Positions 26,601-41,166 of a DNA stretch of 41,173 bases are shown here, piece by piece; the stretch's first letter is position 1, and every line of letters begins with the position of its first letter. The notes beneath the pieces are model-generated. The model made no database searches. It was given only the letters and a program-made list of their open reading frames with translations, and had not been told where the DNA came from. Made by a program: the position numbers and the translations under genes. The DNA comes from an uncultured Clostridia bacterium (GTDB taxonomy: Bacteria > Bacillota > Clostridia > TANB77 > CAG-508). The stretch spans positions 1 to 41,173 of the forward strand of contig CANQGE010000013.1 in the NCBI GenBank assembly GCA_947601495.1. Reading direction: 5' to 3'.

Positions 26601-29600
26601 TCCTACTGTAATATTTGCTAAATCATATATTGATTTATTCGTAGATTTAAATTGTAATGTAACTCTGTTATCTGTTCTATCTACATTTAGTACAACAAGG
26701 TCTGATACTTTAAGTTCATATTCTTTAACAAAATATAATTCTTGTATTCCAAAAGATTCTTCTGCTTGATTTTCATTATTATTAATGTCAAAGTCTAAGT
26801 CATAAGTTATTTTTAGCTCTATACTATATTTTTTGTATTCTGCTACATCTAAGTTGTAGTTATAATTATCTTTTGTAAGTGGAACTTCAGTTTGCTCACC
26901 TGTTTCTGTATCTGTAATTAAAATTCTGCCACTTACAAATGACATATCATCATCAGTTATTTTAAAACTTAAAATAGGTTTTATATTATCTAAATTTAAT
27001 CTTAATTCTGAAACAGAAAGTTTATCTTTTAATATAAATATTGTTACAGATGGGTTATTTTTAATTTCTAATTCTTCGTCGGCACAAACAACTTTTGTTA
27101 CTTTAAATTCTTTATTTCCAACTTCTTGAGGCATTACTATTTCTGCTTTATATGCTCCTGTTTCATCTTTATGTAGGTTAGTTGCTAAAATACCATTTAT
27201 TTCTACACTTTGAATATCTTTAGAAGTATTAGATTTTACAGTAAATGTTATTTCTGCTGTTTTTCCTTTTTGTGCATATTTTTCTGCAGAAACACTAGTA
27301 ATTTCTAAGTTAACTCCTACTTTTACTTCTTTTTCATCAGAAATAGCTTCTTGAAGATGAGATTTTGCGTCATTAATTTCGTAATCTGCCAAAATTTGTA
27401 TGAAATAAGTTCCTTCAGCATAAATTTCATTTGAGGTAAATTTAATCTCATTAGGGTCTGTAATTTCAACCTTATTAATAATTTCATTATTTAATTTTAA
27501 AACAGCATATTTTTTTGATAATGTGTTATCTTTATCTGTAAAATCAATATTTTTAGCAGTTATAACTGTTTTTTCACTATTTACAGATAGTTCTCCTATT
27601 GTTGCTGTTGGTTTATCTTTAAAAACAACGATTGGGTTTAAGTTTTGGAATAAATCGCTATTTGTATTTTTATTAAATACCTTTAAATTGTTTAAAATTA
27701 ATTCTTCTAAAGTTATTTCTGTTCTTGTATTATTTGCTTTTTCTAATGGAATTTCTATTGTATAGGTATTATCATCTTTAACAGTTTTATATTCATGTTT
27801 AACTCCATTAAATCCAATTAATACCTTTTCAATATAATTTTGAGAAGAATTTTCACTTGAGAATTTTAGTATTACTTTTCCAGATTCTGAATCCAAGCTA
27901 AATTTAACATCTTTAAGAGTTAAATTATAATTTGATTGGATATTAAAATCATGGCTTACAAAAGTTTTTGTATTCTCATTTTTTTCGTTATTATTATCAT
28001 TATCTAAGTCATAAGTAATTTCTAAAGAAATATTATAATTTTTAAATTCTTCTATATTTTCTAATTCGTATGTTTGTATTATATTTCCACTTGCATGTTT
28101 AATAATTGGCATTTTTTGTATGTCATTTGTTTCTAAATCTTTAATAATTATATTTCCACTAACGAATGTAGATTCTAAATCTGTTAGTGAAAAACGAACT
28201 TTTGGTTTTCCACCTTGTGAAACTTCTGAATCATCTATACTTAAATTTTCAATACTTAATTCAGATTTTAATATTTCTGTTTGTAAATTACATGTGCTTT
28301 GAATTTCTTGTTCACCATAATAAATTCTTGTTGCTTTAACATCAAATATTCCGTTTTCTGGTCTTTGAGTTGGTGCTTTAAATGTTACTTTATATGTTTC
28401 ATCATTTACTTTTTCTGTTGGAAGTTTAACATTATTTACTAAAATATGTGTTACTTCTTTATTTGTGTTATCTGATATTACATATGTTACTTCTACATTC
28501 TCTCCTTTTTTAACAAATGTTGGAATATTAGATTTTTCTTGAACGAAGCTTGCTATTATTGGGCTATCTATTTTTTCTTCATACTCTTCTGTTATTTTTT
28601 CTTCGCCATTTCCAATGTTGTAAGTAACTTCTATTTCTACTTTGTATGAACCAGATTCAGTAATATCTGTATTTCCAGAATAAATATTTGAATCTTGATT
28701 TTTCTGTAATTCTACTGTTTTTACAACATTATTGTTCTCATCCTTTACTAAAGCTTTTACAGAAATTATACTATTTTCTTCATCAACAGTATTTACTTCA
28801 AAGTTTACTTTTCCCTCTAATATTTTTGTAGAAACGCTTTCTATAGAAGGTTTTTCTTTTATGTATGAATATTCTAATGTTTGATTAACAGATGCTTCAT
28901 AACCATTTTCTAATCTAACAGTTTGAAGTGTTATTTGATTTTTATAATTTGTTTCTTTTGGTAATTCTACTTTGTAAACATTATTTTCTTTTTGAACTGC
29001 ATACTCTTTATCATTAACAACTATTACTTTTACATCATAATAAGATTCTTTTGCATTTTCAAAAGAAAGAATTAATTTTTCATTTTTTGAAACTTTAGAT
29101 GTTAAATTTAAGTTCTTAGCTTCAAATCCATATTCTCTAATAAATTTTAAATCTCCATTTTTATTTTCAAAAATATCGTCTATGAAGTCTGCTTTTGTAG
29201 TAAAGTCTTCAGCAATGCTTTCATCTAAAGCATTATGATCTAAGTCATATTCAACATCAAAATCATAATGATATGTTTTTCCATCGCTTAAATTTACTGC
29301 AAATTTATTTTCTCCTATCTTTATATCATTAAATTTTGATTCAAATACAACATTTCCTTCTTCATCTTTTATTATGAATTTAGCAGTTTTACAAGCTTTA
29401 TCTGGGTCATTTAAAGTAAAACTTATTTCTGGAACTTCTTTCTTATCATCTATTTTAAAATTCTCAACTGTTGGTTTATCTTTTAAAATATCTATAAGAA
29501 TTGTATATCTAGCTCTAACTGTTATGTTATTAGCAAGCTTAACATCAGTAATATTTAACTTTTGTACTCCAGCTTTATTAAAAGCATCTAAAGTTACTTG

Positions 29601-31178
29601 GTAATGATTTGACTCACTGCTTCTAGAAACTTTTTGTACTTCATAAAATTTCTCGTTAATTCTTAAAGATTTAACTTCTGAATATGGTTTTACATCAATA
29701 TATAAATCTAAAATTACTTTTTCGCCTTTTTTAGGTGTAAAAGTATTTACTCTTGATTCTGTAACATTAGAAGAATATGTATCTTCTATTGAAGGTCCTT
29801 CTGGATTTTGAGGGTTACTTGGGTTATTAGGATTGTTAGGATTATCAGGTTTTGTAGGTGTATCTGGTGTGCTAGGATTATCTGGGGTTGTTGGTACATC
29901 TGGCTCAGTTGGATTACTTGGTTCAGTTGATGTTCCTGGATTGCTTGGATTATCTGGATTAGTTGGTATATTTGGGTTACTTGGGGTGCCTGGATTAGTA
30001 GTGGTACCTGGATTTACTGGCGTAACAGTAGTACCTGGTACATTTGGAGTACTAGGGTTACTTTGTCCTGTGCTTCCTCCACTGCTACTTGAACCATTAT
30101 TATTTACGCTACTGCCTGAATTATTATTTGAGTTGTTGTTTGAGCTACCGCTTGAATTATTGCTAGAACCATTTGAATTATTTACTGTTGAACTTGATGT
30201 TGCAATAGATAAGTTGTTATTTTTGTTTGTTGTATTATTTTTTGAAGTGTTTATATTTACATCATAGTTTTTATTTTCCGCATCTCTAACAGTATCAGCC
30301 ACATCACTTCCATCAACTTTTCCATCATTATTTATATCTAAATTTTTTAGTAGTTCTTCTGATGGCTTTCTAATTTCTAAAATATATTCCATTAATTCTA
30401 CAGTATCTTTTTCATCTACAACACCATCTTGATTAATATCTGTTTTTTGTTTTTTATTTGCTCCTTTAAAAGCACTAACAATTAATATTATTGTTAAAAT
30501 TATTCCTATTATTAAACTTAATATTTTTCCTCTTTTATTTATTCTACTAAAAGCAAATATTCCTATTAAAATAGCAATTATTAATATAATTGAGAAAACG
30601 CAAATTAAAGATACCCATGGAAAAGTTTTTTCTGTTTCCAATGAAATATCTTCATCATCTATTTCTATATCTTTTTCATCTATAGCTGGCAAACTTTCTC
30701 CTTCTTCAAGACCATCTTTAATTATGGTAACATTTGCCTTTGCTCCATTTAAAATTACATGATCTGTTGAATTGGAAACTGAAGCATTATTTAAGCTTAT
30801 AGTTGTTTCTCCAGCTTTAGCATTATCTTTTACTTTAAATTTTATTTTTAAAACTTTATTTGAGCTTTCGTCTCCAGTTTTATTAGTTATTGCAAATTTA
30901 TTATTTATTTTATTATAAGTAATTTCAGACCAATTTTCTTGCTCTTCAAAATCGTCTTTTTCAATTACTTCAAAAATTTCTTCATCATAAGTTAATTTTG
31001 CAGTATAAACGTATATAGGGGTTCTATCAGTATTAAAATTAACAGAAACTGTAAGTTCATCACCTGGGTTTAATTCTGTTTTGCTAATTTCTAACTGCAT
31101 TTCATCATTTGCATACACATTCACTAAAGGAATAATTATTAAAAGTATAGTTACTAAAATTAGTGTAATTTTTTTCAT
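17661..31178 (-). CDS. giant secreted cohesin/dockerin protein with C-terminal M26-like zinc metallopeptidase
   Basis: 4505 aa. Order: signal peptide (1-23); cohesin-like domain (about 25-152); two membrane helices (about 187-210, 219-236); dockerin-like calcium repeats DINQDGVVDEKD and DINNDGKVDGSD (247-300); a Ser/Asn then Pro-rich linker (about 310-470); 13 tandem units of about 200 aa, each with a (V/I)LKDKPT-like junction (about 470-3100); a segment with GTLNGHGHTISNL (about 3320-3550) like the M26 N-terminal region; and a peptidase domain with H4090-E-T-L-H4094 and E4112 in GYGRRGGAEDYAAG, the layout of IgA1-protease/ZmpB/ZmpC enzymes. The tail is Asn/Thr-rich. Streptococcal relatives carry an LPXTG signal followed by helices near the N-terminus; here the helices are present but no LPXTG is seen. 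The likely role is cleavage of a host or microbial surface protein; the target is unknown. The ATG has GGAAAGGG 7 nt upstream. Confidence 0.9.
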   Translation of the reverse strand: MKKITLILVTILLIIIPLVNVYANDEMQLEISKTELNPGDELTVSVNFNTDRTPIYVYTAKLTYDEEIFEVIEKDDFEEQENWSEITYNKINNKFAITNKTGDESSNKVLKIKFKVKDNAKAGETTISLNNASVSNSTDHVILNGAKANVTIIKDGLEEGESLPAIDEKDIEIDDEDISLETEKTFPWVSLICVFSIILIIAILIGIFAFSRINKRGKILSLIIGIILTIILIVSAFKGANKKQKTDINQDGVVDEKDTVELMEYILEIRKPSEELLKNLDINNDGKVDGSDVADTVRDAENKNYDVNINTSKNNTTNKNNNLSIATSSSTVNNSNGSSNNSSGSSNNNSNNNSGSSVNNNGSSSSGGSTGQSNPSTPNVPGTTVTPVNPGTTTNPGTPSNPNIPTNPDNPSNPGTSTEPSNPTEPDVPTTPDNPSTPDTPTKPDNPNNPNNPSNPQNPEGPSIEDTYSSNVTESRVNTFTPKKGEKVILDLYIDVKPYSEVKSLRINEKFYEVQKVSRSSESNHYQVTLDAFNKAGVQKLNITDVKLANNITVRARYTILIDILKDKPTVENFKIDDKKEVPEISFTLNDPDKACKTAKFIIKDEEGNVVFESKFNDIKIGENKFAVNLSDGKTYHYDFDVEYDLDHNALDESIAEDFTTKADFIDDIFENKNGDLKFIREYGFEAKNLNLTSKVSKNEKLILSFENAKESYYDVKVIVVNDKEYAVQKENNVYKVELPKETNYKNQITLQTVRLENGYEASVNQTLEYSYIKEKPSIESVSTKILEGKVNFEVNTVDEENSIISVKALVKDENNNVVKTVELQKNQDSNIYSGNTDITESGSYKVEIEVTYNIGNGEEKITEEYEEKIDSPIIASFVQEKSNIPTFVKKGENVEVTYVISDNTNKEVTHILVNNVKLPTEKVNDETYKVTFKAPTQRPENGIFDVKATRIYYGEQEIQSTCNLQTEILKSELSIENLSIDDSEVSQGGKPKVRFSLTDLESTFVSGNIIIKDLETNDIQKMPIIKHASGNIIQTYELENIEEFKNYNISLEITYDLDNDNNNEKNENTKTFVSHDFNIQSNYNLTLKDVKFSLDSESGKVILKFSSENSSQNYIEKVLIGFNGVKHEYKTVKDDNTYTIEIPLEKANNTRTEITLEELILNNLKVFNKNTNSDLFQNLNPIVVFKDKPTATIGELSVNSEKTVITAKNIDFTDKDNTLSKKYAVLKLNNEIINKVEITDPNEIKFTSNEIYAEGTYFIQILADYEINDAKSHLQEAISDEKEVKVGVNLEITSVSAEKYAQKGKTAEITFTVKSNTSKDIQSVEINGILATNLHKDETGAYKAEIVMPQEVGNKEFKVTKVVCADEELEIKNNPSVTIFILKDKLSVSELRLNLDNIKPILSFKITDDDMSFVSGRILITDTETGEQTEVPLTKDNYNYNLDVAEYKKYSIELKITYDLDFDINNNENQAEESFGIQELYFVKEYELKVSDLVVLNVDRTDNRVTLQFKSTNKSIYDLANITVGENSYLAKKVENTTDTYTFDYMISNEQLGKRTEIKIDSVSLTNNKKLEVTDDVKTVIFKTPPIANNIKLENVQNTRIKVTYDVKDDDKTLSKLYIVLKDEQGNTIEDKTVEKDIREVNFNVSEAKKYKVEILGDFNLVDGLSHSREKLLESENEVEIVPTAAITTNSVSNRYPNKGETVEISYKILSNVNSAPTKVVVNDNSEYDLQAVGTPNDYKMIFKVADYATTENININKIYFANGQTVTLSQAHQEKVEVLKAVPTVNITSTDHLNQNIVSFIITITDQDNAVTGGKASIHAQEISLHSGSNPFNVTVEPDEEHTLNVEVDYDLDNDELTAGTEEDHNTNKITMNKNFTLVSDYKLTVSNLATYKTESNEPSSYFTKGEQIQLRFNSSNSTSYEPETVVVNDLKDEKFEGTEYQVKKVQDGSSEHQYYVDIVTNTVSGLQELTIDSVKLNSSKVETEFEGKDLTAKFEVLKDKPTMTDYTSTNHENSIIVKFNITDTDNALLESKLKLIDVQSDAEVKSETITVGANTHTFENLETGKQYKIILENNFSLREDRQDVQNEIVKEEQLEITDKNNVDFRMKNLSISERVPTNSKVHISFENGVLSYKDVDSITINDIKYPVTKGNDNIYKLDLDPGEKGVNILRLQSVGIGTKTFEINRNLRYVHEKVLPTAIEVTDINENTKDNLAIIKYKLVDEDSTVKSLKAYMKNSAGSIIATSEDISEFSTTDVNTLEMPLLKLNEYHIELRANHDIGDGETFEETALFTKSMISESRATVVEQTIDKEYSNKEEEVTITVKLNTNVDQEVRKIYIGEDAFDAVKVKNEKGEIVNDTYTVTLISPKKTGIFEQRVTKVQIGNSLIDTDHISYAEGVEPCNIQVLKDKPTLTHFMIAEDGSKATFKINDLDESLAKPHPKMIVKDMTNNGKVVAEKDLTKGGKDYEYKLKELGMTDVNHNYNITVDVSYDLKPTEKVSIFRRIANFITNAISGEENDESEEFTTTGTEKIYDETFLLTSKLTYKLDFKDGVGYYFLTRKKDDDDSAVIFDCTTGTPYKVVKVIINDKEYNVEPGTKEGNYRVLIRAENINLNWITYQKVILENGVSLDIPEKDGVSRIPVRVVQETPTFNILEYSEDVKEKKVRFRFKLVDEDEKMASEFTFKLMDSQNGLIAEKEVKRTDTTVEFDIPNPPTAVYKLQVRAKLYEVPGYDGFYIDWPAFDGDFKSSVNSSILGSKFSTVYPSKGETITIDYTISSTTVIKIDPEDHTNQDKAVGISYLVINGKDYDVQTLDNEQYRVYYTADNKTGVQDVDVSAIKFTNGTTEEFIRKDQIDVLKDMPEIRNYKVENQLDKNKVKFSFDLVDNDHILTSNNIYARVNDNDQNVNVEHSKTVTHNELEFNAKQDELSKFEVFASFDLDTDILKNETSSDDNSYIDKSIFEKPFMLTGDYSVDIKNIETYNSKGEKTEYFEKNEDILVKFESTTKVPELCVETVKINDTVYEPEKDENNIYTLTIKGSDKAGKVNLPISSVTLNSGNEIEIKNANINYEILKDVVKVKELKSAVSDNGDIVNVDINIEDNDKSNNKLRLEIKDEYNQPVNLSTSDLNVGTNRVTFEKTSAEKYFATIYSDYDRDLDKTNNPNHYTNMNIYYQIISINTRYIEMKDIVDIALYKFGDDGRAEKVNSLTENNLQVLENCLVKVSMRNIAPFYSNITDYNVENGKLRLVLAYTDAMVFTGKEELKPLEVTLDILEGSSSGYQYDGSFQSLVDKMRLNPTGTFDLDKDYDLDEYAVNTNSKAIIDFEFKGTLNGHGHTISNLHKPFFSLLKDATIENIVFRGTDFINQGSQATVVLNANHSNLSNLNIDLVTIRGGNNNAGIAYEITNGSVIDKCNVVNLNFSVMYSNQNNAGAVVSLKDSTIQNCYIAGTMPSGWQVNSGFVAQASGNSNIINNIVNLKVSPYFGNEYIGNGGILARGTATLKNNLSLMNTNSKIYTIYNENKNTATLAEGSKDNYQLKETNCLKNTLSNAVKEVDAKDIDSSFFKKLDFSDQAWVIDGNTSINNLPVLKSVSASFSDDGEQPENTEVYIPDYNRVHKLPDYDSNKEIVYHNMYKIMPFYDAKEIIRDGNKIPADNELSTKIVKYVIPYDKSGKMISSLTTENYNSLNEIRIVFTDKTSKKYHIDFDDYYGNVASYMISDLNVGYNYNKYIINPNLDIINYLVTEASSYTYDNDLEPIVSREDSRLYKEHFENYTKNHIKDFIINTLVNMDYSMSFESEVLDNLIKQDLVRTGKLKNLLFAYNYFTYWYNLDMDGINVADSIMFHANEMFDNRMTMANITNELITGTNSATNGTAGFYNNGLAKYTKLTNLGLFLDYYVQTLTHYTDGNTWFKEHWKGGRYYTVSIDKEGVDYTLWDHLKKDGKVQNDFLPLCTVPENSTYAIASPTQAYFGSLRVYMTDPSNPDQIAAFEKKVNVWLKEVKAFYEFGYTYWGKDTLNKYCDVNYDMRTTYTGQGNATVYNNPLTTQEPYHKYFIEAINRWAGTSGGAYANGNEVFWVVIKMLDNFRVGTHETLHNQDSKIFLNGYGRRGGAEDYAAGFLQQYYRDGWVSPNIFDDDLMKENSTQNFYRATVENDKKLSVFYKNYFNTNDFLDWIEAKAFFTLSPEDQAKLAVQVSYPQVDEAHQDEGDDVVAYTPLTTDRVQGMNLKSMEALWDNRIMLRPGVKEYEQRSPGADTDSIFNIHWYQPHADNDRPDGANFKYLAWQMAGERGYYDGLCAYYSQKYVGIKNGKGGNTTDLTALRYIMNDDKITFREYKLNRYKELGKHYEEQGTYINAKEIYEKYLEALIKDAQSGNRNLSNSTAVKKQYFRQIQKETEDFTINPFDKNPNAKSISLELEDNLLNITEIQLDNLNITNTVENTIANKTEENTDNSSYNIVDENSNTQNIVEENDFTNTTNTTNTISTKKNINTNTVENQNVTVQNKTK

Positions 31179-31291: not shown

Positions 31292-31319
31292 AAAAAAGAG
31301 CACTATCGTGCCCTTTTTT
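31292..31319 (-). terminator. cassette 1 terminator
   Basis: On the minus strand AAAAAA-GGGCAC-GATA-GTGCTC-TTTTTT: a 6-bp stem with one G-U pair, flanked by A and T runs, beginning a few bases after the peptidase stop codon. GGGCAC echoes the GGGGCACC stems that close the cassettes at 35.6 and 36.2 kb. Confidence 0.8.
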
Positions 31320-31323
31320 GAGG

Positions 31324-32286
31324 TCATTGGAAAACGATTTCGTACCCTTCGTCTGTTTCGATTATCGTCATGTTTTCGACATCTTCGACGAAGTAGTTTT
31401 GCCGTATTATTCCAATTTGCTCGTCGGTCGGTGTGAAGGTTCTACAGTAGGCACTCAGGATATCCTGAGAAATAATGGCCAGGTAGTAACCAGTATCGTC
31501 AAACGATTTTCCCAAATTTCCAACCAGGTCAGAAAAAACCTCTCCAATGTTGTCTACTTGGTAGAAGACCTGCGGAACATCTTTCAGCCTTTCGGAGATG
31601 TGTTCTGATATATCGAAATTGGGATCCTCTATATATCCAGAGACGATTTCCATCTCGTTTACGGCGCACAGCTGGTTTGCTACCATCCGATAGTATTCAT
31701 ACGCCTCGGTTGGAAAGTAGGTTATGCTAGCAAATGCCGCAAATTTGCTAGCTAAGATGTCTGCCATTCCTTCGTCAATTGCAGAATCAACCACGCTTGT
31801 GACGCCAAGATAATGCATTACCTCATGCACATACGTTGACGTGAGGAATATGGAATAGTTTGCGTTTTCGAATAGTATCACATTCAAACCTATTCCTTTT
31901 GATCCTCTTGGTGTGTATCCTGCAGTGAATTCTTCCTCCATCGGTGCAACGAAGTAATTTACTTCCATATTTTGAAGTTTTTCGCTCACATCGATGTTGT
32001 AGACTTCTTCGAAGAATTGGCCTATCCTTTCGTTCAGTGAAGTGAATTTTTCCACATCGTCTTTTCCTGGATTGTACTCTATTTCGTATGTTTCCAGATT
32101 TTCCTGCTGATGATATATCTCGATATCGCAAAAGATGTGGACCTCATTTTCCCGGAGCCAATACTGATTTTCTGTGGCTTCTTTATTAACTGATGTTGAA
32201 GTTGCTGTGAAGATGCCAACTCCAAAAAAAGCCACTAATAAAAATACGACAACAATTATAATAACAATGTCTTTCGTTCTTCCCAC
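31324..32286 (-). CDS. membrane-anchored gluzincin-like zinc metallopeptidase, foreign composition
   Basis: 320 aa from the GTG at 32286, which has GGGAGAG upstream; an ATG 17 codons earlier has no ribosome site. A single N-terminal membrane helix (about 5-24) without charged cytoplasmic domain puts the rest outside the cell. The active-site motif is H154-E-V-M-H158, with E172 in DEGMAD as probable third zinc ligand, the HExxH-(13)-E layout of gluzincins. I cannot assign a peptidase family. Codons are far richer in G and C than in the flanking genes (many TTC, AAC, GAC, ATC). The gene is a self-contained unit with promoter and 5' hairpin (32385-32440) and terminator (31292-31319). Substrate unknown; in this position it might process surface proteins, but that is speculation. 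Confidence 0.82.
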   Translation of the reverse strand: MGRTKDIVIIIVVVFLLVAFFGVGIFTATSTSVNKEATENQYWLRENEVHIFCDIEIYHQQENLETYEIEYNPGKDDVEKFTSLNERIGQFFEEVYNIDVSEKLQNMEVNYFVAPMEEEFTAGYTPRGSKGIGLNVILFENANYSIFLTSTYVHEVMHYLGVTSVVDSAIDEGMADILASKFAAFASITYFPTEAYEYYRMVANQLCAVNEMEIVSGYIEDPNFDISEHISERLKDVPQVFYQVDNIGEVFSDLVGNLGKSFDDTGYYLAIISQDILSAYCRTFTPTDEQIGIIRQNYFVEDVENMTIIETDEGYEIVFQ

Positions 32287-32384
32287 AACACTCTCTCCCT
32301 TCGTGGGTGTAGGTCCTAAGTTGCCAAAAGCCAGCATATATAATAATATATATCGTTACGGCATTAAAGCCGGGGAGCAAATTA

Positions 32385-32440
32385 AAGATGTAGTTTCCTA
32401 CATCTTCTTTTATTATATAATATTTTTTTAATTATGTAAA
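32385..32440 (-). promoter_or_regulatory. cassette 1 promoter with hairpin at the transcript 5' end
   Basis: TTTACA (32435-32440), 17 bp, TATAAT (32412-32417) on the minus strand. About seven nt further on, where transcription should begin, stands a 9-bp hairpin, AAGATGTAG-GAAA-CTACATCTT (32385-32406), with a GNRA loop. A leader of about 120 nt then runs to the GTG start. A hairpin at the extreme 5' end would be expected to shield the message from decay. Confidence 0.75.
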
Positions 32441-34591
32441 GTATTTATAAATTTTATTTAGAAGGCTCCACCGCCTCCGCCACTTCCGGCCTCCACCAGA
32501 GTATCCTCCGCCTCCAGAGAATCCTCCGCCTCCTCCAGAAAAATCTCCGCCTCCACTATTTCCAAATGACTCTAGCATTGACATACTCACATCTGTATAA
32601 CTTTTAAGAAAAACTGCATCAAGACCACCATATCTATAAAAATAATAGTAATCAGATATAATAAATTTTTCCATTTCATAAGCCATATTTAATAAATCAT
32701 CATCTAAATTTAATCCTTTAATTCTGCTTAATAGTTTATCGGCAATTCCAAAACTTACAGCATAAGCTAAATATTTTCCCCACAACACCACTTGTTCTAT
32801 ATCTCTATCTTCCATTATAGAATAGTTTTTTATCTTATCTTTTAAGAAATTTAGTCTATTATAATCCTCCAGCATACTTGGATTATTTTTTAGCATTAAA
32901 TTATCTGTCAATAAAATAATTGTTGATATACAAATTAAAATTTCATCTGCTACAATATATTTAGCAGAAATAAAGAAATATGTTAATGCAATTATAATTC
33001 CGAAAAATACAAGTAAGCTTATTGTTGTTGTTACTACTTTTTGACCTGTTACCTTTTGCACACTCTTATTTATAGCCCTTCTTATAATTATTATTAGATT
33101 TAAAGGAATAATCATAAGTCCCATAATTATTGGGAAAAACATAATAATAGCCATTAATATTGCAGTAATGAATCCTATTTGTGATGATGGATTATATACA
33201 TTAAATCCATTGTATAAAATATGTTTACCTGTTAAAAATAAGCAAATAATAAACAAAATAGTATTAAAAACACGTATAATTGTTGGAACTTTTGTTTCAT
33301 TTGCTTTTAAGCTTGACAGATTTTTTTCAGCTAACTTATTTAACTCTTGGAATTTGTCATTAGCATCTTTTTCTTTTGGCATTTCCTTTAATCTTTCTTC
33401 CAAATAAGCACCAGGTTTTCCATTAAATATCCATTCATATATAAATGCTTCAATTTCGTCCATCTGATCTTCAAGTTCAAAATTTTTGCTAATTAAATAA
33501 GTATAATTTTCTTTTGCTGAAACAATTCTAGGTTTTATTTCTATTTTAATTATACCTTTATCAATTAAATTTAAAGCAACAGCGATAATATCTCTTGCTA
33601 AAACATTTCTACTTCCTTGAATACACCCTGCAATCATTGGATTGTATTTTTTAAATAATTCATCTTCCTCAATTATCATCGGTATATATTTTTTATCTTT
33701 TTCAAAAATTAATAGTAAAACAATCCAATAAATTAATAAGATTAGCGCAAATAGAAGAATATATTCTGTAAATTTATCTTTTCCTTCTTTGTTATCCAAA
33801 ATTGCTTTTTCATCAGCTAGCACAATTCCTATTGCATCTATTTTAGATTCTTTTGTTGAATTAATGATATTTTGATTATCAAATAATATACGGGCTGCCA
33901 CATATTGACCTGGTTTTACATTTTTAACGTTAAAATTAGCATGTCTATTATTTATTATTTTTGATTCTCCATTATATGGACCATGTCCCCAAATTTTGAT
34001 ATCTGAATTATTATTAGGTAAATATATATCTATATTTAATTTTTTTATAGTTTCATCCCATGCTCCACCTATAAAATTATAATATAGCTCTCCTATATCA
34101 TTATGCTTTACACATAAATTATTAATTGTATAATATATTTTAAAAGTTTTTTCCTCATCTGTAGAAGGTGAATATATTTTTATTTTTTTAATACCATCTG
34201 TATTCGTTTCGGTATAAACTCCATTGTCACCATTTTGAGTTGAATATTCAGCTCCAAGAGAAAATGACGTTTCGCTATTTTCTAAAACAACTTTTTCAAC
34301 AAGAACACTTTCTCCATTATATATGTCATCATCAATTCTATCATTTTTGATAATTTCTTCATTCTCAATATCTGTAAAATTGTAAGGAACTGTAATATAA
34401 ATTCCATTATAATGTCCGTTAAATTTATATGTTAATTCTTGCTCAATTTTAACAGAACCATCACTTTGAATAGTTGCTTGAATGTCCATATTGTCAATAG
34501 AATAGCTATTAGCTTCTGCTTTATTTTGAAAAGCTAAAATTATTAATATAACTACTACAAAAAAAGTAAATACATTTATCTTTCTTTTCAT
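32432..34591 (-). CDS. DUF2207 membrane protein, 3' end frameshifted
   Basis: 719 aa as written. DUF2207 proteins are membrane proteins of unknown function with an N-terminal signal/anchor, an extracytoplasmic beta domain (here about 28-250), a membrane helix (about 275-292), a cytoplasmic part, further helices (about 445-465, 475-500, 520-560) and a glycine-rich C-terminus. The tail here reads SGGGGGFSGGGGYSGGG and then switches to RKWRRRW. Removing one base in the GGCCGG at 32486-32491 restores GGSGGGGGAF and a stop at 32458-32460, the ending typical of the family. The extended frame also runs through the promoter of the next gene, so the extra base looks like an error or a recent lesion. 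AGGAGATGTGAA precedes the ATG. It follows DUF1653 by 18 nt, probably in one operon. Confidence 0.88.
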   Translation of the reverse strand: MKRKINVFTFFVVVILIILAFQNKAEANSYSIDNMDIQATIQSDGSVKIEQELTYKFNGHYNGIYITVPYNFTDIENEEIIKNDRIDDDIYNGESVLVEKVVLENSETSFSLGAEYSTQNGDNGVYTETNTDGIKKIKIYSPSTDEEKTFKIYYTINNLCVKHNDIGELYYNFIGGAWDETIKKLNIDIYLPNNNSDIKIWGHGPYNGESKIINNRHANFNVKNVKPGQYVAARILFDNQNIINSTKESKIDAIGIVLADEKAILDNKEGKDKFTEYILLFALILLIYWIVLLLIFEKDKKYIPMIIEEDELFKKYNPMIAGCIQGSRNVLARDIIAVALNLIDKGIIKIEIKPRIVSAKENYTYLISKNFELEDQMDEIEAFIYEWIFNGKPGAYLEERLKEMPKEKDANDKFQELNKLAEKNLSSLKANETKVPTIIRVFNTILFIICLFLTGKHILYNGFNVYNPSSQIGFITAILMAIIMFFPIIMGLMIIPLNLIIIIRRAINKSVQKVTGQKVVTTTISLLVFFGIIIALTYFFISAKYIVADEILICISTIILLTDNLMLKNNPSMLEDYNRLNFLKDKIKNYSIMEDRDIEQVVLWGKYLAYAVSFGIADKLLSRIKGLNLDDDLLNMAYEMEKFIISDYYYFYRYGGLDAVFLKSYTDVSMSMLESFGNSGGGDFSGGGGGFSGGGGYSGGGRKWRRRWSLLNKIYKYFT

Positions 34592-34609
34592 TTCACATCT
34601 CCTAAAAAT

Positions 34610-34867
34610 CTATTTATTAAAGTTTTTGGCAACACTTTCTATATTTTGCAATTCAAATCTATATTTTTGTGTAACACCAGGATATTTTTCATGGTCAACT
34701 TCACTTAAAAACATTTCTAATGGTCTTACCCATAATCCCCCATCTTCATATAATTTTCGGTAAACTACAACTTTTTCTTGTGTTTCTGATTCTTGTGCAA
34801 CATCCACAACAAGATAATAGTCTCCTTTAAAATGTTTATAAATACCATTAATTTTAATTTCTCTCAT
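34610..34867 (-). CDS. DUF1653 protein
   Basis: 85 aa, soluble. The DUF1653 pattern is plain: KINGIYKHFKGDYYLVVDVA at the start, a central VVYRKLYEDGGLWVRPLEMF, then RFELQ near the end. Function is unknown; these small beta-rich proteins are widespread. Length is normal. AGAAAGGAAA lies 6-10 nt before the ATG. It is the first gene of a unit with the DUF2207 protein and has its own promoter (34911-34939). Confidence 0.9.
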   Translation of the reverse strand: MREIKINGIYKHFKGDYYLVVDVAQESETQEKVVVYRKLYEDGGLWVRPLEMFLSEVDHEKYPGVTQKYRFELQNIESVAKNFNK

Positions 34868-34910
34868 TTTATATTTCCTTTCTGTTTTTGCTTTAAATTA
34901 ATTTAAAATA

Positions 34911-34939
34911 ATTTTATGTTATATTAAATGTAAAGTCAA
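34911..34939 (-). promoter_or_regulatory. promoter of the DUF1653-DUF2207 unit
   Basis: TTGACT (34934-34939), 17 bp, TAAAAT (34911-34916) on the minus strand, about 45 nt ahead of the DUF1653 ATG. Confidence 0.6.
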
Positions 34940-35014
34940 TTTATATTTTATTAAAAAATATTTTATATAATTAAAACATTCAAATTTTAATATACTTTTT
35001 AACAAGTATCTAAT

Positions 35015-35065
35015 TTTACTTTTATGTTGACCTATTGTATAATATATTCATAAGGCAATAGCCTT
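35015..35065 (+). promoter_or_regulatory. cassette 2 promoter with 5'-end hairpin
   Basis: TTTACT (35015-35020), 17 bp, TATAAT (35038-35043). The hairpin AAGGC-AATA-GCCTT (35052-35065) begins about where transcription should start and is followed by TTGTAT, as in cassette 3. The leader from there to the ATG (35066-35242) is long, about 180 nt, pyrimidine-rich and poor in G, hence largely unstructured; I see no convincing ORF in it apart from a 19-codon frame without a good ribosome site. Confidence 0.75.
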
Positions 35066-35242
35066 TGTATTACCTCTTTTTTCCCATCAGCATTGCTGAA
35101 AACGACCAAGAAGGATGGTGATAATTTCTAAATTTAGCAAACCATTAACTTACTCTACTTACTTACCCTGCTAACTTTCTCGACTCAGTCACTACTACCA
35201 GCACATATTATCTAGACATTCGTGACTAAGGAGGAATTCTGA

Positions 35243-35599
35243 ATGAGTCTTCAACTTACTGAAATGGAAGCTATGCAACTATGCAACCTGATCTACGATG
35301 ATATCGTGAACGCTCTCAGAAAGCTATACAACTTTCAGGACAACGACGACCCGAAGGCAACCTACTGGGGGCACAAGGAACATGCGGTTGGCAATGGTGT
35401 TTACATCTTCCGCAACGGCTATGTCGTAAAGCTTTTCTTTCAGCCGATGTGCCATGGGACCTTCAAGATTTGGCTTGGAAAGTGGAACGACACATCCAAC
35501 CTTCTCTTCACCAATCGCGAAAAAAGCACTACCATTGACGATGTCAAGTCCATTCTCGACAAAGTCGAAAAAGGAGACATCTCTTTCTGGGAGAACTGA
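35243..35599 (+). CDS. GD(I/V)SFW family protein, copy 1, foreign composition
   Basis: 118 aa, probably cytoplasmic: no signal peptide or membrane helix. I do not recognise the family. It is clearly homologous to the 111-aa product of the next cassette: both have G(V/I)(Y/F)(I/L)F-x-N-x-Y-x-V in the middle, a WLG-x-W motif, and end in V-x-x-GD(I/V)SFW. The N-terminal 40 residues are helical and diverged. Codon use is C/G-ending (AAC, GAC, TTC, ATC, CTC), in contrast to the AT-rich genes on either side. AAGGAGG lies 8 nt before the ATG. It forms a single-gene unit with a strong promoter, a long leader and a terminator at 35640-35680. Confidence 0.78.
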   Translation: MSLQLTEMEAMQLCNLIYDDIVNALRKLYNFQDNDDPKATYWGHKEHAVGNGVYIFRNGYVVKLFFQPMCHGTFKIWLGKWNDTSNLLFTNREKSTTIDDVKSILDKVEKGDISFWEN

Positions 35600-35639
35600 A
35601 ACGCGAACAATCTCTTGGAATAGGAATATGAAAGGAGGA

Positions 35640-35680
35640 AAGGTGTCCCGTGACTCGGGGCACCTTATTTCTTTTGTTTT
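35640..35680 (+). terminator. cassette 2 terminator
   Basis: A 10-bp G+C-rich stem (35640-35649 with 35657-35666, one G-T pair) closes the 7-nt loop GTGACTC and is followed by a T-rich tract. The arm GGGGCACCTTA and the loop end GACTC recur exactly in the hairpin after the second copy. Confidence 0.9.
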
Positions 35681-35694
35681 TATTATTCAATATT

Positions 35695-35746
35695 TTTACA
35701 ATTATGTAAATTTGTGGTATAATATTCGTGTAAGACCTTGTGTCTT
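35695..35746 (+). promoter_or_regulatory. cassette 3 promoter with 5'-end hairpin
   Basis: TTTACA (35695-35700), 17 bp, TATAAT (35718-35723) with extended TGG. A hairpin AAGAC-CTTGT-GTCTT (35732-35746) begins at the expected start of transcription and is followed by TTGTAT as in cassette 2. The 110-nt leader holds CTCGACT three times (one CTCGACT also occurs in the cassette 2 leader) and is G-poor. Confidence 0.8.
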
Positions 35747-35857
35747 TGTATCTACTCTCTTTACTCGACTTACACTGCTCAACGAACTTCAACTCGACTG
35801 CTAACTCTATATGCAAAACTCGACTTTACAATCTACGACCAAGGAAGGAGTTTTCAG

Positions 35858-36193
35858 ATGGAAAACTATTTCGTTAAGCGGATGGAACTGAGGCCTACCA
35901 ACCTGAACTACGATGAAGTCAGAGCTCTTTGGCGTAAGGTGAACAGAGGTAAACATTACGGCCGTGACTATGGCTTCCCTTCGGCGTACGTTTACGGTGG
36001 CATTTTCTTGTTCACCAACAAATATGCCGTCTTGTGCGGTAGCGCGTGCAACGTTCCGACGATGTGGCTGGGTCATTGGGAATCTGACGGTACCATCATC
36101 TTTGGTGACTTCGGGACCGGCAGGTGTCCTGGCGATATGGAATCCCACATCCTCAAGCAAGTCTCTATCGGAGACGTCAGCTTCTGGAAGTAA
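35858..36193 (+). CDS. GD(I/V)SFW family protein, copy 2, foreign composition
   Basis: 111 aa, no signal peptide or membrane helix; family not recognised. It is a diverged paralogue of the 118-aa protein at 35243: shared GGIFLFTNKYAV, WLGHW and the terminal GDVSFW. The N-terminal 40 residues do not align well between the copies, while the C-terminal 70 do, so the latter is presumably the conserved domain. Two Cys in the central part are not shared. Composition is near half G+C, foreign to the region. The start is the ATG at 35858, directly behind AAGGAAGGAG; earlier in-frame ATGs lie in the untranslated leader. Possible roles include a small immunity, antitoxin or adaptor protein, but nothing in the sequence decides this. 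Confidence 0.76.
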   Translation: MENYFVKRMELRPTNLNYDEVRALWRKVNRGKHYGRDYGFPSAYVYGGIFLFTNKYAVLCGSACNVPTMWLGHWESDGTIIFGDFGTGRCPGDMESHILKQVSIGDVSFWK

Positions 36194-36237
36194 TCCAAGT
36201 AGCCAGAAATTTCTCAAGTTCTCAGTTCAAGAGAGGA

Positions 36238-36265
36238 AAGGTGCCCCCGCGACTCGGGGCACCTT
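36238..36265 (+). terminator. cassette 3 hairpin, terminator without T-run
   Basis: AAGGTGCCCC and GGGGCACCTT pair perfectly (10 bp) around an 8-nt loop ending GACTC. Unlike its sister at 35640 it is not followed by T residues but by AACAAATT and the ribosome site of the next gene, so read-through into the dockerin protein is plausible. The shared sequence stops right after CACCTTA, which may mark the cassette boundary. Confidence 0.7.
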
Positions 36266-36290
36266 AACAAATTATAAAGGTGGTAAAAAA

Positions 36291-38273
36291 ATGAAAAAAT
36301 TGTTTAAATTTATGCTTATAGTATTTTTACTTATTTCAATATTAATTCCTTTTACATTATTTAAAGGAAATACCTCGAAATTAGTAAAATCTATTAATGT
36401 GCAAAGTATGAATAATTCAGAAACTTTAAATACTCAAATCGACTATTCTGAAACTTTAGATACTTTCGATAATCCAGAAAGAGGATTCTATACTTATCTT
36501 TATCATAATTTTAAAGTTTCTAATAATGAAGAACCAAAAGCATATCTATTAGAAGGAAACTTAATTCATTTAAGACTAGGAATTGGAGCTTTTTCAGGTA
36601 AAGTAAATAAAGACAAAGATTTAGAATTATCTGAAGATATGTTAAATATGTTCGATAACATTTTAAAGAAAATAAAAGCAAATGGAGCTACAGCAATTGT
36701 TAGATTTGCATATGATAATTTTGAAGGTGATGAAAATCTTGAACCTTCTCTTGATATGATACTAAAACATATTGAGCAAATATGCCCTATACTTACTGAA
36801 AATAAAGATGCAATTTCTTATATAGAACTTGGATTCTTTGGACCTTGGGGTGAAATGCATACAAGTGATATTTCTACTCCAGCTAATGTAACTAAAGCAT
36901 TAAATGTAATGCTTGAAAATACTCCAGAAGAATTAAAAATTGGTGTTAGACAACCTAAATACTATGTTGATTTTGCTGGAGTTGATAGAGAAAAATTAAA
37001 TGAAAATATTACTGTTAAAGGAACTAAAGAATATAGAGTTGGACTTTTCAATGATGGATATCTTGGTTCACACAGTGATCTTGGAACTTTTGAAAATAGA
37101 GAAACAGAAATTTCTTGGCTTGAAAATCAAGCACTTCATACTTTATATGGTGGAGAAGTTGTAGGCACTCGTGGTAGTCAAGAAAATGATAAAATAAATA
37201 CGGCAGAATATATGTCTAAAGAAGCATTTAGAACACATACTACCTATCTTAATTATGATTATGATAAAAGTGTAATAAATTCTTGGAAAGATGAAATATA
37301 TAATGGTGATGATGAACTTTATAAAGAAAAAAGTGGATATTTATATATTGCAAATCATATGGGATATAGATTTGTTTTAAGAAATTCAAATATTACTGTA
37401 GAAAATAATAAAATAAACTTTTCTTTTAGCATTGAAAACGTTGGTTTTGCAAATTTAGTAAATAGCAAAGTAGTTTCACTTGTATTAGAAAATGATTCAA
37501 GCAAATTTGAATTTGCAACTGACCTAGATGCAACAATTTGGAATAGTAAAAGCACATCTAATATTAATGTAACACTTACTGTTCCAGATAATTTTGAAGA
37601 AGCAAAATATAATGTTTACTTAAGAATTTCAAAATATGGAGATTATTTAAATGACAATAATTATCAATGTATTCGTTTAGCAAATAACAATATTTGGGAT
37701 GAAACTTTAGGCGCAAATTATATTGGTGAATTTATATTTGAAAAAGAAAATATTCCAGAACCAGATAATCCAAACATACCTGATACTCCGGATGTGCCTG
37801 AAATTCCTAAAATCAATACTGAAGATTTAGGTTATAAAATAGCAGAACAATACATACAAGAAGTAAAACCTAAGACTCCGGTTCAAGATTTTAAAGAAAT
37901 TTTGTTAAATAATTTAGAATATTCATTAGAAATAACTGATGAAAAAAATGAAACAAAAATAACAAATGGATATGTAAAAACAGGAATGTATGCAAAAATT
38001 GTAGATGAAAACGGAAACATATTAAAAAATCAAGATAATAATCCTTTAGAATTTCAAATAGTTGTTACTGGTGATATTACTGGCGATGGAATTGCAGATG
38101 CATTAGACTTTATATCTATAAAATTACACAGAGCTGAGGTAGCAGTCCTTCAAGGAATAAACTTTCAAGCAGGAGATTTAAATTTTGATGGATATGTTGA
38201 TGCAATAGATTCAAAACTACTTCTATTGCATAGAGCTGAAGTTCAAGGATATGATTTAAACTATACAAAATAA
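36291..38273 (+). CDS. secreted DUF4874/DUF4832 protein with C-terminal dockerin
   Basis: 660 aa. An N-terminal signal/anchor (KLFKFMLIVFLLISILIPFTLF) directs export. Residues about 45-330 match DUF4874, starting with the typical FDNPERGFYTY and continuing with LIHLRLGIGAF and YIELGFFGPWGEMHT, a TIM-barrel-like, glycosidase-like region; DUF4832, a beta domain, follows to about 490. A short Pro-rich linker, a beta segment, and a type I dockerin with two calcium loops (GDITGDGIADALDF and GDLNFDGYVDAIDS, about 593-650) close the protein. The activity of the family is unproven; carbohydrate binding or hydrolysis is the usual guess. The ATG has AAAGGTGG upstream. It has no evident promoter of its own: the GC-rich hairpin of cassette 3 lies only 25 nt before it. 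Confidence 0.88.
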   Translation: MKKLFKFMLIVFLLISILIPFTLFKGNTSKLVKSINVQSMNNSETLNTQIDYSETLDTFDNPERGFYTYLYHNFKVSNNEEPKAYLLEGNLIHLRLGIGAFSGKVNKDKDLELSEDMLNMFDNILKKIKANGATAIVRFAYDNFEGDENLEPSLDMILKHIEQICPILTENKDAISYIELGFFGPWGEMHTSDISTPANVTKALNVMLENTPEELKIGVRQPKYYVDFAGVDREKLNENITVKGTKEYRVGLFNDGYLGSHSDLGTFENRETEISWLENQALHTLYGGEVVGTRGSQENDKINTAEYMSKEAFRTHTTYLNYDYDKSVINSWKDEIYNGDDELYKEKSGYLYIANHMGYRFVLRNSNITVENNKINFSFSIENVGFANLVNSKVVSLVLENDSSKFEFATDLDATIWNSKSTSNINVTLTVPDNFEEAKYNVYLRISKYGDYLNDNNYQCIRLANNNIWDETLGANYIGEFIFEKENIPEPDNPNIPDTPDVPEIPKINTEDLGYKIAEQYIQEVKPKTPVQDFKEILLNNLEYSLEITDEKNETKITNGYVKTGMYAKIVDENGNILKNQDNNPLEFQIVVTGDITGDGIADALDFISIKLHRAEVAVLQGINFQAGDLNFDGYVDAIDSKLLLLHRAEVQGYDLNYTK

Positions 38274-38289
38274 TGTTCTTATAAAAATT

Positions 38290-38324
38290 AAAACAGTGTA
38301 TATCTATAAATACACTGTTTTTTA
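38290..38324 (+). terminator. intrinsic terminator of the dockerin protein
   Basis: AAACAGTGTAT (38291-38301) and ATACACTGTTT (38310-38320) form a perfect 11-bp stem with an 8-nt loop, followed by T residues that merge into the TTTTTA tandem repeat. Confidence 0.88.
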
Positions 38325-38360
38325 TTTTTATTTTTATTTTTATTTTTATTTTTATTTTTA
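38319..38360 (+). repeat. hexanucleotide tandem repeat (TTTTTA)7
   Basis: Seven perfect consecutive copies of TTTTTA, with partial copies at both ends, starting inside the T-run of the terminator. It lies between convergent genes and encodes nothing. Confidence 0.95.
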
Positions 38361-40178: not shown

Positions 40179-40316
40179 TTAATTTAATGATATAGCATTA
40201 ATCTTTTTTTCTATTCCTTCATTTTCTCTTTCTAAATCCAATTTTTTACTTATTATCTTTAATTGTTGATACTTACAAACAGCTAAATTAGCAATTTTTA
40301 TCACTGTATTTTTCAT
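40179..40316 (-). CDS. possible 45-aa protein overlapping the Bro-N gene
   Basis: A 45-codon frame beginning with an ATG 29 nt inside the end of the Bro-N gene and ending 18 nt before the dgt ATG. The product is helical and Lys/Glu/Ile-rich (KKLDLERENEGIEKKI). There is no strong ribosome site, so translation would depend on coupling to the upstream gene. It fills the gap between two genes exactly, which favours it, but composition alone could produce such a frame in AT-rich DNA. Function unknown. Confidence 0.35.
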   Translation of the reverse strand: MKNTVIKIANLAVCKYQQLKIISKKLDLERENEGIEKKINAISLN

Positions 40317-41166
40317 TTTTTTCTTCTAAAACTTTTTGATCTATATATGTATAGTTTAATGAATTCTTTTTACTAATTATTGTTTTTCCCAATTTTTTCT
40401 CTAAATCATCTCGTGCTGTTTTTGCTACTTCTCCTCCGGCTTTTGCAACTTTCTTATTTGCTTTTAGTCCAAGTGGTCTATGTTCTTTAGCTAATTCTTT
40501 AGTAGCTATTTCTCCCAAATCAGTTAATGCTACCTCGATATCAGACATATTATCTCTTAAAGATTCTTTTCTTATTCCTTTATAATTTTTGTATTCTGAT
40601 GCTTTCATACCTGACCAAGCTTTATATATTTCATTTGTTAATACTGCAAATTCATAGTTATCTTTAATTCCATTTTCTTTCCATACATCAGTTAATTTAT
40701 TTCTATCCAATATTCCTTTTAGTCTTGCTTCAATCCATTTATCAGAATAACCTCGAATTCTATAATAATCAATCGATCTTTTTATTGCAATTTCTGGATC
40801 AAATACTTCATCAATTCTTTCTTTTCCCATTTGAGCCAGCCACATTTTAAATGGTTCTGCTTTACTACTTGGTATTGATTCAATAAGACGCAATATTCCT
40901 TGTGTATCTAAAACATCTGCATTTCTCATTTTTCCGTCTTTTGATCTGAACTTGAAAGTGTCACAATTTGTGACGGTTTCATTTCCTTCTTTAATCATTC
41001 TATATTTTAAAGTTCTCCAATAATGTGATGGATCAGGACTATCAGTTAATGCTTTTACTACATCTGTAATATTAAAATAATATTCTTCTTTATCTGCATT
41101 CCAAATACTTCGTATTTCATATCCTTCAAAAAGATTTGATATAATTTTTAATTTGTTATTTTCCAT
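40288..41166 (-). CDS. Bro-N domain protein (phage-antirepressor-like)
   Basis: 292 aa. The N-terminal Bro-N domain (about 10-125) has its usual blocks: IRSIWNADKEEYYFNITDVV, then HYWRTLKYRM, the ADVLDTQGILRLIESI segment and AEPFKMWLAQMG. This DNA-binding domain occurs in phage antirepressors and in stand-alone bacterial proteins. The C-terminal part (YYRIRGYSDKWIEARLKGI, TDVWKENGI and later DLGEIATKELAKEHRPLGLKAN in separate blocks) resembles DinD-like chromosomal proteins. It starts at 41166, seven bases from the window edge, so promoter and ribosome site are out of view. A damage-response or phage-related regulator is likely; no other phage gene is nearby. Confidence 0.85.
   Translation of the reverse strand: MENNKLKIISNLFEGYEIRSIWNADKEEYYFNITDVVKALTDSPDPSHYWRTLKYRMIKEGNETVTNCDTFKFRSKDGKMRNADVLDTQGILRLIESIPSSKAEPFKMWLAQMGKERIDEVFDPEIAIKRSIDYYRIRGYSDKWIEARLKGILDRNKLTDVWKENGIKDNYEFAVLTNEIYKAWSGMKASEYKNYKGIRKESLRDNMSDIEVALTDLGEIATKELAKEHRPLGLKANKKVAKAGGEVAKTARDDLEKKLGKTIISKKNSLNYTYIDQKVLEEKNEKYSDKNC

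Follow-up and report, generated by a model that had tools for sequence, protein, structure and literature searches.

The window, that is, the whole stretch of 41,173 nucleotides analysed here, is contig C13 of a 1.67-Mb genome bin (G000; 72.7% complete, 32 contigs) and has a G+C of 27.0%. It contains three GC-rich single-gene units, a metalloprotease gene (MetProt) on the minus strand and two orphan genes (casB and casC) on the plus strand, and most of their neighbours have the look of chromosomal genes (prfB and dgt were named by eye). An earlier note on this DNA had claimed that three genes stand out in G+C and codon usage, and the values computed per gene bear this out: MetProt, casB, and casC (GC 0.41, 0.46, and 0.51; GC3 0.44, 0.61, and 0.64) are clear outliers, all above the 95th percentile of a tight background (GC 0.279 ± 0.050; GC3 median 0.126, 95th percentile 0.21) taken from 341 kb of the own genome with 273 non-overlapping ORFs of at least 60 aa. 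The note's figure of near one half G+C holds for casB and casC, but the protease is only modestly GC-rich. High expression fails to explain the GC of the units, because EF-Tu (named by eye), which is presumably highly expressed, has a GC of 0.35 and a GC3 of only 0.15.

The promoter of the MetProt unit (32412..32440, minus strand; TTTACA-17-TATAAT) agrees with the consensus at 11 of 12 bases and is nearly unchanged in the sister genome G016. The hairpin AAGATGTAG-GAAA-CTACATCTT at the predicted RNA start (32385..32406, minus) is conserved there as well. The leader of 119 nt carries a Shine-Dalgarno (SD) sequence at 32293-32302 and is followed by an ORF of 320 aa (31324..32286, minus; probable GTG start at 32286) and by a 3′ hairpin (31292..31319, minus; -14.4 kcal/mol, z -6.5) whose second arm ends in the T-run of a terminator. 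The protein has an N-terminal membrane segment (by eye) followed by HExxH...E, and the motif residues H154, E155, H158, and E172, the last being the downstream Glu(-Gly), are invariant in five of five relatives. Gluzincin, the clan name for HExxH...E metallopeptidases of this kind, describes zinc enzymes that have the HExxH with downstream Glu-Gly in common with MetProt; unlike the known families, MetProt, compared here by sequence motif, has no Pfam or NCBIfam match, no Pfam family reaching the cut-off, and a PDB profile search gave no relevant match. MetProt is probably a membrane-anchored extracytoplasmic zinc protease of gluzincin type, with protease activity predicted from the motif. Three of its relatives in other genera (G225 and G188 are among the carriers) are lipoprotein-like by eye, and a cassette of G051 is a possible remote relative (hhalign probability 77%).

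The casB unit begins with the promoter TTTACT-17-TATAAT (35015..35043, plus; 10 of 12 consensus bases) and the 5′ hairpin AAGGC-AATA-GCCTT (35052..35065, plus), which differs from that of casC by one compensatory pair; a leader of 193 nt with an SD at 35228-35234, an ORF of 118 aa (35243..35599, plus), and a terminator hairpin (35640..35666, plus; z -5.9) follow. The casC unit has the promoter TTTACA-17(TG)-TATAAT (35695..35723, plus; 11 of 12, conserved in G016), the 5′ hairpin AAGAC-CTTGT-GTCTT (35732..35746, plus), a leader of 128 nt with an SD at 35841-35850, an ORF of 111 aa (35858..36193, plus), and a 3′ hairpin (36238..36265, plus; z -4.6) with hardly any T-run (TTAAC). Both genes encode small proteins and are orphans, matching no protein family significantly. 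They are paralogues (27% identity, E 3e-10), and the promoter, ORF start, and terminator of casB recur at casC with a spacing of 598-680 nt, so the two do not count as independent designs. By eye, the casC 3′ hairpin has a different stem in G016, with paired changes. The 3′ hairpins of casB and casC (35635-35667 and 36233-36266) are more alike mutually than that of casC is to its G016 orthologue; with ORFs just 27% identical, gene conversion is possible. A palindrome, TTTACA-ATTA-TGTAAA (35695-35710), overlaps the casC -35 box and is perhaps an operator; a palindrome like it, with 6 nt at its centre, is found upstream of an unrelated gene in another genome, G017, at the site of the C1 unit described below.

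These units belong to a wider class. Ten GC-rich single-gene units were counted in 601 kb (36%) of the own genome, namely the window and the first 160-200 kb of contigs C1-C3. Besides MetProt, casB, and casC, they are the C1 unit (C1:16806-17597; GC3 0.82, the highest of the class), a PurA-like gene (C2:151863-153236, or L195:11863-13236), a small membrane protein (C3 12568; C3-12k), a GNAT (C3 63089), a 60-aa membrane protein (C3 81101), another membrane protein (C3 about 83000-83401; C3-83k), and an HNH endonuclease (C3 158396). The automatic list was revised manually: two units masked by longer ORFs that overlap them (casC and the 83-kb unit) were added, and entries that were short or antisense were left out. 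Since ten were counted in 36% of the genome, the whole genome perhaps holds two to three tens. For three units inside 4.7 kb, random placement of ten units in 601 kb gives P of about 0.02, a figure that carries ascertainment bias as the window was picked for its three units. Like units with other ORFs are found in the congeners G009 and G051 and in G242 of another genus. Their density is uneven, with none in 100 kb of G018 and only short, left-out ORFs in 100 kb of contig C1 of G016. Multi-gene or uncertain cases were excluded from the count and from the hairpin test, namely a cluster of three ORFs and a 315-aa ORF in G003, a pair with a neighbour in G023, and a 68-aa ORF in G008. The G003 run (G003:C14:53692-56675), three GC-rich ORFs in a row unlike the single-gene units, is perhaps a mobile element.

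A start hairpin is what sets this class apart from native genes, with half of its members conforming to a strict rule (at least 5 exact pairs, a loop of 3-8, and a start 2-12 nt past the -10 box). Of 20 cassettes, 10 have such a hairpin, compared with 8 of 58 native promoters (p=0.0019), the 20 units being not fully independent because four MetProt and four casB/C relatives are among them. For this set the sister orthologues were left out, two more units were added, and all leaders were taken. A first version, which included four sister orthologues and dropped 4 of 23 cassettes for short leaders, gave 12/19 against 8/58 (p=7e-5; shuffles expect 1.5), a difference in folding energy between cassettes and native promoters with p=7e-8, and a weaker result for stems of at least 6 (5/19 against 4/58, p=0.04). 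The rule was fixed after the first examples had been seen, and the two versions used slightly different promoter thresholds. Among the three units, only the MetProt 5′ hairpin is clear against its own shuffles (-10.7 kcal/mol, z -5.3). The corresponding values are -5.6 kcal/mol and z -1.65 for casB and -2.7 kcal/mol and z -0.65 for casC; as these single sequences do not stand out clearly from their shuffles, their support comes from the class-wide test and from stem conservation. The casC stem recurs unchanged in G016, and of the two relatives in G242 one has it too. Four of the five family members retain the casB/C stem, with one paired change; since 135 of 500 shuffles do as well, this is weak evidence by itself. 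The fifth member (G242, contig C4), outside the stem alignment, forms another and shorter stem. The two matches found in Rfam are both below threshold.

The positions that the earlier note had given for promoter, leader, ribosome site, and 3′ hairpin are confirmed for all three units. Its start hairpin is present in each and in excess across the class, though MetProt alone clearly beats its own shuffles. Its hairpin terminators are strong 3′ hairpins throughout, but that of casC is almost without a T-run, and a terminator scan of the window listed the casB hairpin and neither of the other two. Its single shared design survives in so far as the parts and their order recur; two of the units are paralogous, and the layout is the usual one of a monocistronic gene. 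Promoter-like sites in the window number 33 against 25.3 expected by shuffling, and besides those of MetProt and casC two others match at 11 of 12 bases, one being TTGACA-18-AATAAT.

G016 is a separate metagenome-assembled genome (CANQYM010000004.1, uncultured Clostridia bacterium Lapin-015__bin83) and is syntenic with the window, with MetProt and casC in place and in order and casB missing. The two agree at 94.6% over 19 kb, protease included, and at 90.7% onward to 34950, left of casB. The casB stretch (34951-35693) has no match in G016, casC matches at 74%, and the dgt side at 96.8%. Within the protease unit, the leader is 98% identical over 100 nt and the coding sequence 60-90% per 100 nt. 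These data bear on whether the units could be the product of a chimeric assembly or of bin contamination. The bin is incomplete and divided into many contigs, and casB is seen in this assembly alone; MetProt and casC, however, recur in a separate assembly with their order kept and with closely matching surroundings, which makes an artefact very improbable. The note's argument against a chimeric join therefore stands for two of the units. MetProt and casC already occupied this site before G000 and G016 diverged, and their inheritance has been vertical from then on. The empty sites that the note would have sought in relatives are found for casB in G016, but both other units are present there.

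Other sites of the class vary likewise. The C1 unit is absent from G016, where flanks of 96% identity are separated by 4 nt between the aligned parts, and its site holds an unrelated gene in G017. At the C3-12k site, G017 has no unit (about 69 nt) and G016 has a relative with 32% identity. G017 also lacks the C3-83k unit, of which G016 retains a remnant (G016:C2, L130:2974-3108), with the terminator and part of the ORF kept and the promoter side lost. The GNAT unit and the 60-aa unit are present in G016. The region varies beyond the GC-rich units, as a DUF4874/DUF4832 gene with a dockerin domain (window 36277-38341) has native composition and is missing here in G016. Another dockerin domain lies near the N-terminus of a single 4505-aa ORF (window 17661-31178, minus). 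No mechanism of movement is apparent, since the window ORF list, read by eye, has no transposase ORF at the three units and clear terminal repeats are lacking; this counts against the reading favoured below. Terminal inverted repeats at MetProt (21 nt, 76%) and at C1 are at chance level (227 of 300 controls), and a 16-nt direct repeat near the C1 ends does not fit the G016 junction. The ends of the casB stretch that G016 lacks carry a 14-nt AT-rich pair, 86% complementary (34954-34967 and 35684-35697); its 12 of 14 matches are a borderline figure, which 19 of 300 control pairs, likewise AT-rich, also attain.

The third-position differences between the sister genomes in the cassettes are nearly all of one kind. 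In five orthologous cassette pairs, the third positions at identical residues show 133 differences between G/C and A/T (S/W), 3 S/S, and 10 W/W. Among the S/W differences, which were counted with no outgroup polarisation, 90 have A/T in G016 and 43 have it in G000. The cassettes have kept 0.82 (G000) and 0.69 (G016) of their S sites against 0.71 and 0.72 in four native genes, a match good to about a factor of two, because the native figures include gains and so overstate native loss. The implied ancestral GC3 of the five pairs is 0.61-0.86; for casC alone, GC3 is close in the two genomes, 0.64 here and 0.70, slightly higher, in the sister. The dS of the cassette pairs is 0.40-1.89 (MetProt 0.87, casC 0.97) against 0.08-0.46 in four native genes. 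Replacement of alleles from a donor pool was rejected as the cause, given S/W changes with almost no S/S and a native-like decay of G/C; the high dS needs no swapping of alleles. The C3-12k pair (32% amino acid identity, dS 1.89) is a possible exception. Very high dS between orthologues can hence arise from composition decay alone. As the units are losing G/C in place, they were probably recent residents when G000 and G016 split. For casB and C1, either later gain or loss in G016 would account for the difference, and a late gain of C1 fits its GC3, the highest of the class.

The distribution of the units is patchy. casC was found in one of 52 congeners, and the casB/C profile in three of the 385 genomes searched within the order, one of which belongs to another genus and has two copies. 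MetProt was found in one of 35 congeners, with strong matches in four of the 385 genomes of the order and three further ones that are weak and partial. Its relatives in other genera are 26-33% identical and have a GC3 of 0.32-0.38 with neighbours mostly at 0.12-0.24, and the fact that such distant relatives are still GC-enriched argues for several separate recent entries, which implies a source pool outside the sampled genomes.

The PurA-like unit adds an odd case. It lies between serS and engB. Across 175 other genomes sampled in the class, a single match attains an E of 1e-100 or better (54% identity, in G097 of another genus of the same family); it is at the serS-engB site too and its codons are AT-rich. 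In congeners, serS is visible at eight loci, of which three also show engB (G032, G036, and G044), about 25 nt away and with no gene between. Random insertion would hardly be expected to put a GC-rich PurA unit where another genus has a purA of ordinary composition, and this coincidence hints at reuse of a site or at a donor with shared gene order. It would also suit native genes that became GC-rich through a local force, such as GC-biased conversion or transcript selection, and evolved fast in place, as would the orthologous positions of five units in G016 and the GC of the transcribed units, which in 19 of 20 (MetProt excepted) is higher in the leader than over the 100 nt that precede the -10 box, a contrast that suits acquisition as well. 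Against native origin stand the sister changes, which, though unpolarised, fit loss of G/C in two lineages, the low GC3 of EF-Tu, the lack of casC in 51 of 52 and of MetProt in 34 of 35 congeners searched, and the three of three congener loci that have serS and engB adjacent with no purA. We regard it as improbable.

The source was searched for at several levels. Profile searches for MetProt and casB/C in 391 genomes of the class gave no convincing match: one profile had 28 weak matches besides the own genome, all of them within positions 1-127 of the profile, a part that does not include the catalytic motif, and the other had one weak partial match besides the own genome. A protein search of phages (50,697 records) and plasmids found no donor for the three units, and for the PurA and HNH units every phage match was distant (40.7% and 47.7% identity at best). 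Viral contigs scanned by peptide patterns yielded no donor, and by terminator pattern no match; scanned genome contigs yielded no donor and one match, the record that is G016. Such absence is not proof, because these scans either depend on close similarity or cover a mere sample of the class. The single donor pool of the earlier note is left without a donor in any of these collections, and its horizontal acquisition is upheld by the patchy presence, the clean empty C1 site in the sister, and the one-way composition decay; its interpretation as a whole is supported in part, two of the three units having been vertical since the G016 split.

Morons and ORFans of foreign composition are single accessory genes with their own promoter and terminator. 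The units resemble them in being monocistronic, atypical in composition, mostly without family match, and strain-variable, and an own promoter and terminator are found in all three (the casC T-run being weak). The units could accordingly be morons carried by phages, or what is left of phages or plasmids that had integrated, and the HNH endonuclease, GNAT, PurA-like, and small membrane proteins of the class match PHROGs families, as does an adjoining DUF1653 gene (3.2e-18). Morons, however, lie in phage genomes, and the three units are scattered between mostly chromosomal-looking genes and frequently have a hairpin at the RNA start. The window ORFs, judged by eye and by profiles, include no phage structural genes and no prophage around the three units. 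casB and casC have no PHROGs match, MetProt has weak ones only (best 0.0022, N-terminal), and the phage records and viral-contig scans gave none. This origin is unlikely; phage may be the source pool, but the present context of the units is not phage.

We therefore favour, as probable, that these are horizontally acquired, self-contained single-gene transcription units from an unsampled GC-richer pool that are decaying in place. Their composition, anatomy, hairpin excess, patchiness, empty sites, and decay pattern are observed; the nature of the pool and the route of entry we infer. The units would have entered an AT-rich lineage of gut Clostridia and come to lie in gaps between native genes. 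Transcription from a sigma-A-type promoter would give an RNA often beginning with a hairpin, which may mask the RNA end from pyrophosphohydrolase and RNase J and so probably stabilises the mRNA; the SD would direct translation of one ORF, and the 3′ hairpin would end or protect the RNA. A bolder proposal is a minimal mobile unit that consists of one orphan gene and its signals (promoter, 5′ cap hairpin, leader, and terminator). With no integrase of its own, it would spread from a GC-rich, unsampled reservoir among the genera of the family and would repeatedly enter certain favoured intergenic sites. Such re-entry is suggested by the purA and C1 sites, which are occupied, empty, or differently filled in relatives; as a whole the proposal is doubtful. 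That the genera of the family exchange genes follows from a BRO-N domain gene (window 40288-41166, minus; the G016 match ends at 40288), which is 93.8% identical in nucleotides to a copy in another genus (L142:8521-9359), beside a casB/C relative, when prfB of that genus is just 73% identical in protein. From this identity the BRO-N gene appears to be a recent transfer between genera.

Integron gene cassettes are promoterless single ORFs in an array. The present units are single-gene by analogy, but they have their own predicted promoters, form no array, and are dispersed except for casB-casC. Stabilising 5′ hairpins are known from the aprE leader and from E. coli papA (titles in the reference list of PMC3997798). 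Shared with these are a stem-loop at or near the extreme 5′ end and an SD; here the stem-loop, just a few nt from the predicted RNA start, is commoner in cassettes than in native genes and is a recurrent part of unrelated acquired genes, with an effect predicted from sequence. The portions of the literature covered, PMC2718499 and PMC3997798 included, report no such class in these bacteria, which is not a claim that none exists. The layout is ordinary; the number, orphan content, and frequent 5′ hairpins are unusual.

In the sister species, foreign genes can be followed through natural stages from arrival and residence to decay, by which acquisition and amelioration become datable. Judging by this class, a stabilising 5′ hairpin may be common among genes that become established, and the donor it indicates would be an unsampled neighbour of these bacteria in the gut.
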